This document shows, in pieces, positions 11,475 to 29,214 of a DNA stretch of 37,980 bases. The position numbers and the translations under genes are program-made. Where the stretch lies: assembly GCA_035512495.1 (NCBI GenBank), contig DATKDW010000085.1, positions 1 to 37,980 of the forward strand, in the 5' to 3' direction. Source of the stretch: Acidimicrobiales bacterium (GTDB taxonomy: Bacteria; Actinomycetota; Acidimicrobiia; Acidimicrobiales; CADCSY01). The notes beneath the pieces are model-generated. The model worked only from the letters and a program-made list of their open reading frames with translations. It was not told the origin of the DNA and ran no database searches. How positions within the stretch are numbered: position 1 is the first letter of the stretch; each line of letters begins with the position of its first letter.

Positions 11475-11729
11475 TCAGGTGCCCGGGTCGGGCTGGCCGA
11501 GCGCCCGGGCGATGCGCTCCAGGAGGTGGTCCGGCGGGGTGTCGACGCACTTGCGGGCGATGACCATCTTGAGCTCGGCCTCGAAGTCGAAGACCTCGAG
11601 GCAGTCGTGGCAGTCGTCGAGGTGGCGGCGGATGGTCGCCCGGCGCTCGACGGTGAGCTCGCCGTCGAGGAAGACGTAGAGCTCGCGAAGCGCCTCGCTG
11701 CAATCAGGCTCGGTCACGTGGGGTTCCAC
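11475..11729 (-). CDS. rsrA: RsrA/RshA-type zinc anti-sigma factor
   Basis: An 84-residue protein of the ZAS family. The zinc motif HxxxCxxC is at H36-C40-C43, with further cysteines at C10 and C61, which line up with the redox cysteines of Streptomyces RsrA (C11 and C61/C62 region). Under thiol oxidation RsrA loses zinc, forms a disulfide and releases its sigma factor. It follows the SigR-type gene by 121 bases on the same strand, the standard sigma/anti-sigma arrangement. The N-terminal GELTVERRATIRRHLDDC helix is typical. Length is slightly shorter than the characterised proteins. Confidence 0.88.
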   Translation of the reverse strand: MEPHVTEPDCSEALRELYVFLDGELTVERRATIRRHLDDCHDCLEVFDFEAELKMVIARKCVDTPPDHLLERIARALGQPDPGT

Positions 11730-11850: not shown

Positions 11851-12432
11851 TCAGGACCCGGAGGGCTCGCCGCGCTCGGTGAGGCCGCGCGAGGACGCGA
11901 AGTCGTACAGGGCCCGCTGGAGGGCCTTGCGGCCGCGGTGCAGGCGGCTCATCACCGTGCCGATCGGGATGTCGAGGATCTCCGCGATCTCCTTGTAGGC
12001 GAAGCCCTCGACGTCGGCGAGGAGCACGGCGATGCGGAACTGCTCGGGCAGCGCTTCGAGGGCGTCTTTGACCTCGGCCTCGCCGAAGAGGTCCATCAGC
12101 TCGTCCTCGGCGCTGCGGCTGGCCCGGGCCTGCTCGAGGCCGCCGAGGCGACGGTAGAGGTACAGGTCCTCCAGCTCGCCGAGGTCGGACTCGTCGGGCC
12201 GGCGCTGCTGCGCCCGGTACCGGTTGATGTAGGTGTTGGTGAGGATCCGGTAGAGCCAGGCCCGCAGGTTCGTCCCCTCGGTGAAGCCCCCGAAGCCCCG
12301 GTAGGCCTTGAGGTAGGTCTCCTGGACGAGATCCTCGGCATCGGCGGGCCGCCGCGTCATCCGCAGCGCCGCCGTGTAGAGCGACGGCATGTGCTCCATG
12401 GCGAGGTCGGTGAAGCGCGCTTGATCGGCCAT
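11851..12432 (-). CDS. sigR: SigR/SigH-type ECF sigma factor
   Basis: A 193-residue ECF sigma factor. Region 2 includes [44 protein letters not shown] (about 30-74). Region 4 is [47 protein letters not shown] (about 126-172). The wording matches the oxidative-stress group of SigR (Streptomyces) and SigH (Mycobacterium), which direct thioredoxin and mycothiol genes from GGAAY-N18-GTT promoters. The partner rsrA-like gene follows. A GAAAGGG ribosome site precedes the ATG. I find no SigR-type promoter directly upstream, so autoregulation is not supported here. Confidence 0.93.
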
Positions 12433-12507: not shown

Positions 12508-12580
12508 AGCCCGAGACGGGAATCGAACCCGTGACCTACGCTTTACGAGAGCGTCGCTCTGCCATCTGAGCTACCCGGGC
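12508..12580 (-). tRNA. tRNA-Thr (anticodon CGT)
   Basis: The 73-nt minus-strand sequence folds as a cloverleaf: acceptor stem GCCCGGG/CTCGGGC (one G-T pair), D-arm GCTC...GAGC, anticodon stem ACGCT/AGCGT with loop CTCGTAA (anticodon CGT, reading ACG), and T-arm ACGGG-TTCGATT-CCCGT. The discriminator base is T and the CCA end is not encoded. It lies between holB and the SigR-type gene, all on the minus strand. Confidence 0.96.
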
Positions 12581-27306: not shown

Positions 27307-28578
27307 TCAGTCACCGGCCTGCTCGACATCGACCGAGCCGAGCGTCGCGGTGGTGGTGCCCTCCTCGCCGCCGCGCTCGTAGCGGATGGTCACGGCATCC
27401 CCCGGCTCCTTGGCCACGATGGCGGCGACCACCCCCGACGCCGAGGCGACCGTGCGGCCGTCGATGGCGACGATGACATCGCCCTGACGGAGGCCGGCCT
27501 CGGCGGCGGAGGTGCCGGGGACCACACGGGTCACGAAGGCACCCTCGGCTGCGGTGACGCCGAGCTGGTCGAGGATCTGCGGCGAGACGTCGTCGACATC
27601 GGCGGTGCTCACGCCGAGGAAGGCGCCCCCTCGCACCTCGCCGCCCCCGTTGCGCAGCTCCTCGAGCAGGGGCTTGATGAAGTCGATGGCGAGGGCGAAG
27701 CCGATGCCCTCGGCGTTGCCGGCGATGGCGGTGTTGACGCCGATGACCTCACCGAGGGCGTTGACCAGGGGGCCACCCGAGTTGCCGGGGTTGATGGCGG
27801 CATCGGTCTGGATCAGCTGCTCGAGGGTCTGACCGTTCTCGGCGCGGATGCTGCGGGCGAGCGCCGACACGATGCCGGTGGTCACCGTGGGCATGGCGCC
27901 GAGGGCCAAGGCGTTGCCCACCGCCACGACGTCGTCACCGACCTTCATGGACGACGAGTCACCGAGCACCACGGGGGCGAGGCCGCTGACGCCCTGGGCC
28001 TGGATCAGCGCCACGTCGTTGGAGGCGAACCCACCGACGAGGGTGGCCGGGACCTCCCTGCCGTCGGGGAGCATGACCGTGATCGAGGTGGCCCCGGCGA
28101 TGACGTGGTTGTTGGTGAGGATCAGGCCGTCGGCATCGATCACCATGCCGGTGCCGGCACCTTCGACCACCGATGGGGCGGCGCCGAAGCGCCCCGCCCG
28201 CAGCCCTTCGGTGCGCAGGGCGACCACGCCCGGCTGCACGGCGGCCAGCACCCCGCCGACGTCGAGGGGCGCACCCCGGAGCTGGAGGTTGGCCCCAGCG
28301 TCCTCCGTCGTCGCCTCGCGGCCGACCGACACGAGGGCGCCGGCGGTCACGAGGGCGCCCACCAGCGCGCCCACCAGGCCCCCGATCAGTGCCGCAGGGA
28401 GCCAGCCACGGCCTCCGCGCTCGTCGGGCGCCACCGGGGCGGGCGGAGGGTGCTCGTCGCCCGGCAGGGGCGACCAGGCCGGGGACCAGGCGTCGGGCGT
28501 GGGCGGCGCGGTGGGTGGGTTGGCGCTCCACGTCGCGGGATCGGCGGGGGCGGGGTCCCCCGGTGAATCGTGCTGCAT
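27307..28578 (-). CDS. htrA: HtrA/DegP-type membrane serine protease with PDZ domain
   Basis: A 423-residue protein. A proline-rich cytoplasmic N-terminus (1-58) leads to a membrane span (61-83), then a trypsin-like protease domain with H158 (LTNNHVI), D188 (NDVALI) and S267 (GNSGGP), and a PDZ domain (about 300-400: AFLGVSTADVDDV...EAGLRQGDVIVAIDG). It resembles PepD/HtrA2-type proteases that remove damaged envelope proteins. I chose ATG 28576-28578, which has GGGAGG just upstream; in-frame starts as far as 28701 would add a stretch overlapping the promoter region. It is divergent from the small whiB gene, and may share regulation with it. Confidence 0.93.
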   Translation of the reverse strand: MQHDSPGDPAPADPATWSANPPTAPPTPDAWSPAWSPLPGDEHPPPAPVAPDERGGRGWLPAALIGGLVGALVGALVTAGALVSVGREATTEDAGANLQLRGAPLDVGGVLAAVQPGVVALRTEGLRAGRFGAAPSVVEGAGTGMVIDADGLILTNNHVIAGATSITVMLPDGREVPATLVGGFASNDVALIQAQGVSGLAPVVLGDSSSMKVGDDVVAVGNALALGAMPTVTTGIVSALARSIRAENGQTLEQLIQTDAAINPGNSGGPLVNALGEVIGVNTAIAGNAEGIGFALAIDFIKPLLEELRNGGGEVRGGAFLGVSTADVDDVSPQILDQLGVTAAEGAFVTRVVPGTSAAEAGLRQGDVIVAIDGRTVASASGVVAAIVAKEPGDAVTIRYERGGEEGTTTATLGSVDVEQAGD

Positions 28579-28648
28579 GTGGCCTCCCGGGCCGGGATTC
28601 GGTGACGGGCCTCGGATGTCCTCGAGTTCCCACCCATCCTGGCCGATG

Positions 28649-28675
28649 GGTTCCCACGTACAGATGTCGGGAACC
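28649..28675. promoter_or_regulatory. Inverted repeat between htrA and whiB
   Basis: GGTTCCC (28649-28655) and GGGAACC (28669-28675) form a perfect 7-bp inverted repeat, 13 bases apart (20 bp centre to centre, two helical turns). A further GTTCCCA lies at 28626-28632. The right arm coincides with the -35 element of the candidate SigR-type promoter for whiB. Confidence 0.45.
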
Positions 28676-28695
28676 ATTACGGCAGCCGCTTCGTT
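28669..28695 (+). promoter_or_regulatory. Candidate SigR/ECF-type promoter for the small whiB gene
   Basis: GGGAAC at 28669-28674 and GTT at 28693-28695 are separated by 18 bases, the GGGAAY-N18-GTT spacing known for SigR/SigH. The same bases can be read as GGAAC-N17-CGTT, the general ECF form. The GTT lies 27 bases before the whiB start codon, leaving about 15-20 bases for the leader. The cognate sigR/rsrA genes lie about 16 kb to the left. Confidence 0.6.
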
Positions 28696-28721
28696 GTACA
28701 AAGGAGCGATAGAGGAGTTCG

Positions 28722-28964
28722 ATGGACACGAGCTGGATGACGGAGGGGAGCTGCCGGAACGAGCCGCCCGAGCGGTTCTTCCCGAGCGACGGCGTGGGCG
28801 TGGAGGTGGCGCGGCGGATCTGTGCCAGCTGCCCGGTCCAGGAGCCCTGCCTCGAGTATGCCCTCGTCCAGCGCATCGACCACGGTGTGTGGGGCGGCGC
28901 CTCGGAGCGTGAGCGCCGGCGCATCCTCAAGCGGCGCCGCACGGAGGCTGCAGCCACCTCCTGA
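28722..28964 (+). CDS. WhiB-family iron-sulfur transcription regulator (short)
   Basis: An 80-residue WhiB protein with the four cluster-binding cysteines C11, C34, C37 and C43 (CxxC in ICASCPVQEPC), the GVWGG turn and a basic helix SERERRRILKRRR for DNA contact. WhiB proteins bind [4Fe-4S] or act as redox/NO sensors, usually with the principal sigma factor. The subgroup cannot be assigned confidently. A GAGGAG ribosome site precedes ATG 28722. It is divergent from htrA, and its upstream region carries a SigR-type promoter and a small palindrome TTGTACAA (28694-28701). Confidence 0.93.
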   Translation: MDTSWMTEGSCRNEPPERFFPSDGVGVEVARRICASCPVQEPCLEYALVQRIDHGVWGGASERERRRILKRRRTEAAATS

Positions 28965-29012
28965 AGGGGGCGTCCTGGGACGTCGGCGTCCGCCGGCGCC
29001 GCGGGTCGCTCG

Positions 29013-29033
29013 CGGGCCGGTGTCGCCGGCCCG
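29013..29033. terminator. Hairpin between whiB and tatA
   Basis: CGGGCCGG (29013-29020) and CCGGCCCG (29026-29033) form a perfect 8-bp stem with a 5-base loop, in the 73-base gap between the convergent whiB and tatA stops. It could terminate both; no T-run is present. Confidence 0.5.
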
Positions 29034-29037
29034 GTGC

Positions 29038-29214
29038 TCAGGTGACGGGCTTGTCGTCCGTGGTCTCGTCCTCGAGCCCCTCGACGTTGCCCTTGCGGAA
29101 CTCCCGCTGGGCCTGGCCGAGCGATCGGGCGAGGCCCGGGAGCTTGGCGCCACCGAAGAACACCAGGACGATCAGCAGGATGATGACGAGCTCGCCGGTG
29201 CCGATCGCTCCCAT
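29038..29214 (-). CDS. tatA: Sec-independent translocase subunit TatA
   Basis: A 58-residue protein starting MGAIGTGELVIILLIVLVFFGGAKLPGLARSLGQAQREFRKG: one membrane span, the F-G hinge and the amphipathic helix that define TatA/E, then a short acidic tail. TatA forms the pore for export of folded proteins. The start is ATG 29212-29214. It is at the short end of the family. The tatC partner is not in the window. It is divergent from the formiminotransferase-like gene. Confidence 0.93.
   Translation of the reverse strand: MGAIGTGELVIILLIVLVFFGGAKLPGLARSLGQAQREFRKGNVEGLEDETTDDKPVT

Follow-up and report, generated by a model that had tools for sequence, protein, structure and literature searches.

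A putative SigE-type ECF promoter is conserved upstream of a whiB-like gene between htrA and tatA in the Acidimicrobiales

In M. tuberculosis, the sigE gene is located in a cluster of the order sigE-rseA-htrA-tatB. Control of WhiB-like genes by ECF sigma factors is already known from other species: the WhiB-like genes whcA and whcE of C. glutamicum are controlled by SigH, a thiol and heat stress ECF sigma factor (PMC3489674), and the sporulation gene whiB of S. coelicolor is a target of the envelope-stress factor sigma-E (PMC6767563). A third study describes SigH-only promoters of C. glutamicum as GGAAt/GTT and promoters shared by SigH and SigE as GGAAC/cGTT, with a model that places SigH M170 and SigE R185 against bases -31/-30 (PMC10012870). 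In M. tuberculosis, the two factors differ in their preference for the sixth base of the -35 element, SigH favouring a purine and SigE a pyrimidine (PMC4803200).

We analyzed a stretch of 37,980 nucleotides from an Acidimicrobiales bacterium (assembly GCA_035512495.1, contig DATKDW010000085.1), here called the window, in which a whiB-like gene is preceded by the site GGGAACCATTACGGCAGCCGCTTCGTT at 28669-28695 on the forward strand, consisting of GGGAAC, an 18-base spacer and GTT. Both elements and their spacing were present as claimed in the initial annotation, which had taken them for a SigR-type promoter. The following features surround the site:

27307-28578, reverse strand: HtrA-like serine protease gene with trypsin-like and PDZ domains, divergent from whiB
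28604-28631, reverse strand: possible ECF promoter of htrA, GGGAAC at 28631-28626, N18, CGTC at 28607-28604 (one match, weak)
28669-28674, forward strand: -35 element of the whiB promoter, GGGAAC (GGAACC if read from 28670), conserved among orthologues
28692-28695, forward strand: -10 element of the whiB promoter, CGTT (GTT alone, 28693-28695)
28722-28964, forward strand: whiB-like gene, 80 amino acids, PF02467 81.4 bits (cut-off 23.6)
28965-29037, no strand: whiB-tatA junction, where many relatives have sigE and a zinc-finger anti-sigma gene and the window has neither
29038-29214, reverse strand: TatA-like twin-arginine translocase gene, PF02416 51.2 bits
30077-30361, reverse strand: second whiB gene, WhiB/WhiB2-like, outside the control of the promoter, 102.8 bits to the WhiB chain 8dy9_H

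The GTT of the site ends 26 bases before the whiB ATG, which is immediately preceded by GAGGAG. As in other members of the Wbl family, the translated product contains four cysteines (11, 34, 37 and 43) and a GVWGG motif; among chains of known structure it is closest to WhiB (64.3 bits) and next to WhiB1 (56.9 bits), and by family membership it is a predicted iron-sulfur regulator. The GGGAACC halves at 28650-28656 and 28669-28675 form an inverted repeat. The whiB site was the single match to GGGAAC-N17..20-GTT in the whole window, for which 0.39 matches are expected by chance and at least one was obtained in 30 of 100 shuffles, and one copy of the motif in the window, taken alone, is within chance. 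A search of the whole genome, as proposed in the initial annotation, recovered 30 matches to GGGAAY-N17..19-GTT as compared to 16 for the reversed pattern, which is a weak enrichment.

We compared the 130 bp before each whiB start in 81 loci, comprising the window and the best 80 of 136 orthologous loci confirmed by a scan of the species-genome collection, with 30 shuffles of these regions. GGAAC-N17-CGT, which has the spacing of the window site, was found in 42/81 loci (shuffles: mean 0.17, maximum 1), and the remaining spacings between GGAAC and CGT in the range 12 to 23 each occurred in only 0-2 loci. The -35 element was extended to GGAACCA in 28 and to GGAACTTT in 15 of the 81 loci, while GGAAT, the SigR form, was depleted (4/81 versus 9.5 in shuffles). 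No GGAAC-N18-GT site was identified within the scanned 130 bp in 36/80 whiB loci. The promoter is judged to be real because one exact spacing is conserved across the loci, not because of the single match in the window, and the comparison of sequences confirms the predicted promoter as genuine and conserved before this paralogue across its order.

The typical gene order in the relatives was htrA(-), whiB(+), anti-sigma(-), sigE(-) and tatA(-), with a glutamate formimidoyltransferase-like gene and a second whiB gene as further genes where present. A SigE-like gene was located within the whiB locus in 24/80 loci and was present in 18/40 relatives (E below 1e-60); the best NCBIfam model for the protein was SigE, PRK09647, with 225.5 bits (under the cut-off of 265), as compared to 123.6 bits for SigM and 112.4 bits for SigH. 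Four proteins encoded between sigE and whiB were inspected, of which three contained a zf-HC2 domain, one of these also with a weak RseA_N match, and the fourth (L064) gave no domain match. As in the M. tuberculosis cluster, sigE, an anti-sigma gene, htrA and a tat gene occur together, but here whiB is inserted on the other strand between the anti-sigma gene and htrA. In the window, whiB and tatA are adjacent with 73 bases between them, and no SigE orthologue was identified in the draft assembly of this genome (96% complete), where the best matches to SigE were SigR (47% identity), SigM (44%) and a third ECF protein (38%). It appears that sigE has been lost from the position between whiB and tatA in the window genome. 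The promoter was also present, and SigE not found, in two other members of the window's family with whiB (G003, G007).

Thioredoxin reductase (trxB) is a SigR/SigH target in other bacteria. GGAAT-N18-GTT was identified upstream of trxB in 19/30 loci (available for 30 genomes, out of 36 whose match exceeded the cut-off), with no preference for C before GT, and in the scored trxB sites the fifth base was T in 20/22 and the base after GT was T in 21/22. At many trxB loci, however, the position of the motif coincides in part with a conserved coding end (GGIFTLAGLF), by which the conservation of the motif may be inflated. The trxB motif was found in 17/27 loci with SigR and in 2/3 without; a SigR reading of trxB would rest on the known consensus, the co-occurrence being no proof. 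The scored whiB sites, in contrast, had C at the fifth base (-31) in 44/44 and C before GT in 41/44, with A (24), C (12), T (6) or G (2) after GT, and base 6 was C in the window and either C (29) or T (15) in the orthologous sites. The predicted promoters of whiB and trxB are thereby of different forms. The regions upstream of sigE contained GGAAC-N18-CGTT, the same form as the whiB promoter of the window, in 20/34 cases, with N19 in 5 more and no site in 8. All 20 sigE sites have CGTT, whereas most whiB sites end with CGTA or CGTC. The anti-sigM sites, which were selected by hand, have GGGAACC with CGTC and are one base longer (N19) in 14/19, and the whiB sites as a group match neither the sigE nor the anti-sigM form exactly.

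The window site has the GGAA core and the GTT at a spacing of 17-19 that characterize SigR/SigH promoters in general, and also the C at -31, the pyrimidine at base 6 and the CGTT of the SigE type. It lacks the T at -31 that is typical of SigH-only promoters and the purine at base 6, the latter being a weak test since 14/22 trxB sites also have C, and it differs from the SigM-type form (GGAACC with N18 to CGTC) in having N17 to CGTT. The log-likelihoods, which are based on small samples, gave a slight preference for SigE (-8.5) over SigR (-10.5). The -35 recognition helix was GTVMSR in 30/30 SigR loci and GTVRSR in 18/18 SigE loci, and the 18 SigM helices recovered from 20 loci, one of which (L261) was without SigM, all had GTVRSR or GTVKSR. 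SigM of the window genome has the Arg-type helix GTVRSRI. Aligned through the helix motif, the Met and Arg residues would correspond to M170 and R185 of the C. glutamicum model.

The promoter resembles the dual SigH/SigE promoters of C. glutamicum with respect to GGAAC, the C at -31 and cGTT, and cg1277 has the same form as the window, GGAACC-N16-CGTT; unlike in the window, the accessible text lists no WhiB-like gene among the dual promoters and does not mention whcA or whcE, and C. glutamicum has a SigE, which was not found in the window genome (PMC10012870). The likeness to S. coelicolor whiB lies in a WhiB-family gene, an envelope-stress sigma factor and a GGAAC-type -35 element, but the gene studied here is another paralogue than the sporulation whiB, adjoins the sigma locus and has a -10 element of CGTT/CGTA rather than CGTC (PMC6767563). 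Unlike the control of whcA and whcE by SigH (PMC3489674), the promoter form in this clade favours sigma factors of the SigE/SigM type.

The SigR/RsrA pair noted in the initial annotation was indeed recovered from the window, although with SigR just under the model cut-off:

11475-11729, reverse strand: RsrA-type anti-sigma gene, TIGR03988 76.2 bits (cut-off 62.5)
11851-12432, reverse strand: SigR/SigH-type ECF sigma gene, TIGR02947 243.9 bits (cut-off 251.55, just below)

The gap between sigR and rsrA contains GGAAGA-N17-GTT at 11815-11790 on the reverse strand, a form shared with the promoter of rshA in C. glutamicum, which is of the SigH-only class (PMC10012870), and this site is a better SigR-promoter candidate in the window than the whiB site. 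Upstream of rsrA in the relatives, GGAAN-N17..19-GTT was found in 11/30 loci, mostly within the coding end of sigR, and is given little weight. For an autopromoter of sigR, inspection by eye of the 170 bp before the gene in 30 loci revealed no GGAA-GTT site, and no convincing self-promoter match was identified just upstream of any ECF gene in the window genome. A tRNA gene (12508-12580, reverse strand) is located directly upstream of sigR in the window, and a tRNA or a TAGGGT-like box is frequent at this position in the relatives. A gene of the SigM type (trxB-linked ECF sigma) was identified in 27/40 genomes (E <= 1e-40), plus one fragment, and the window genome encodes further ECF genes beyond the candidates compared here as readers.

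We also compared the presence of the whiB promoter with that of the sigma genes in 36 of the 40 genomes, leaving out four with no whiB orthologue (G004, G015, G031, G032); these genomes are mostly drafts in which genes can be missed, and the values are exploratory. The promoter was found in 17/18 genomes with SigE and 10/18 without, and in 22/27 with SigM (counting G010 as positive on a fragment) and 5/9 without. Grouping the two factors, which was framed after seeing the data, gave 27/32 with either and 0/4 with neither (Fisher 0.002), or 16/21 versus 0/4 when each family other than that of the window contributed a single genome (Fisher 0.01). For SigR, the corresponding numbers were 25/33 with and 2/3 without. 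Three of the four genomes without SigE and SigM do have SigR. SigR is present and the whiB promoter absent in G019, G025 and G030, and two genomes have the promoter and no SigR match (G034, G036). Five genomes with SigE or SigM were without the promoter. In this exploratory set, the presence of the promoter tracks SigE or SigM, not SigR.

We consider it probable that the whiB promoter is a SigE-type ECF promoter, GGAACC-N16-CGTT with C at -31, of an ancestral envelope-stress locus, and that SigM is its likeliest reader in the window. The ancestral module would have consisted of sigE, a zinc-finger anti-sigma gene, htrA, tatA and, on the opposite strand, whiB. The lineage of the window genome would have lost sigE and the anti-sigma gene from between whiB and tatA and retained whiB and its promoter. 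SigM is the best guess because this genome has lost sigE and because SigM is the sole remaining ECF sigma factor seen there with an Arg-type helix, and some cross-reading by SigR may occur. The inducing signal would be envelope stress, in the response to which the WhiB protein would take part, and htrA may be co-regulated with whiB. The initial annotation was right that the site is an ECF-type promoter, which is moreover conserved, but its choice of SigR, freed from RsrA by thiol oxidation and relaying a redox signal to an iron-sulfur regulator, found no support in the trxB form or the co-occurrence data. We regard this reading as rather unlikely, yet a serious alternative in this genome, given that both elements and the spacing fit GGAAY-N18-GTT with CGTT in the window copy, SigR/RsrA is encoded in a genome where SigE is absent, and SigH of C. 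glutamicum also reads GGAAC/cGTT promoters (PMC10012870). It is opposed by the T at the fifth base of nearly all trxB sites and none of the 44 whiB sites, by the C at base 6, which is disfavoured by SigH of M. tuberculosis (PMC4803200), and by the genomes cited above in which SigR and the promoter occur apart.

That SigM is the general reader of the whiB promoters order-wide, with SigE in a secondary role, is a real possibility, although we lean against it. The wide occurrence of its gene, the Arg-type helix and the GGGAACC with CGTC before the anti-sigM genes agree with it, as does G036, which has SigM, no SigR or SigE match, and GGGAAC-N17-CGTC at both whiB and anti-sigM; however, G036 has five sigma-region-2 matches in total, the anti-sigM sites are hand-picked and mostly of the N19 type, and five genomes (G001, G005, G006, G008, G038) combine the promoter and SigE with no full SigM match. 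SigE by itself is insufficient as an explanation, since the promoter is retained in ten genomes that have no SigE. A chance origin of the motif in the window, with whiB transcribed by the housekeeping sigma factor, is very improbable: the lone match is within expectation, but its exact spacing recurs in the orthologous loci far above the shuffles, and no sigma-70 type site was found at 28560-29060.

If SigE was the original reader and SigM its successor, the WhiB-like regulator could be a built-in output of the SigE locus whose promoter outlives sigE and passes to SigM (or SigR) after repeated loss, a generalization that we put forward as doubtful; if true, a regulator would have come under a different stress signal with the gene staying in place. 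The genomes with and without sigE provide a natural series for such a hand-over of a promoter between sigma factors. Our literature search, mostly outside subscription journals, identified no paper on a WhiB gene with the sigE locus in this group, and the location of whiB within the sigE/htrA locus, with a promoter kept after the apparent loss of sigE, seems not to have been described in print. A WhiB paralogue is thereby linked to a presumed envelope-stress locus. The closely similar promoter forms of SigR, SigE and SigM were here separated by comparison alone in a little-studied actinobacterial order, and the consensus alone is insufficient to assign GGAAY-N18-GTT sites to SigR.

In seven relatives (L009, L013, L018, L020, L026, L031, L032), 10 bases separate the end of the promoter CGT from the start codon of whiB, which would make the transcript nearly leaderless. 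Another nine loci (L012, L017, L019, L041, L046, L052, L054, L058, L070) share a sub-type with CTTTACGGGAACTTTC and GCGTAnTA or a close form, and have no sigE beside whiB. The htrA promoters of the relatives gave weak signals, with N17-CGT in 4/25 and N18-CGT in 2/25. GGTTCC was identified before whiB in 9/26 loci with a divergent htrA, versus 2.7 in shuffles, and in 2/55 loci where htrA is not divergent, versus 3.75; its enrichment only in the former suggests a paired promoter for htrA.

A strict motif search of the 40 relatives recovered 21 matches, as compared to 3 for the reversed pattern, of which 10 were located at whiB, one at sigE (G016), one at an anti-sigM gene (G037) and 9 elsewhere. 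The match in L226 (G027) is positioned a few bases upstream of a gene for a membrane protein, Bax inhibitor-1-like by eye, which is possibly a further member of the regulon.
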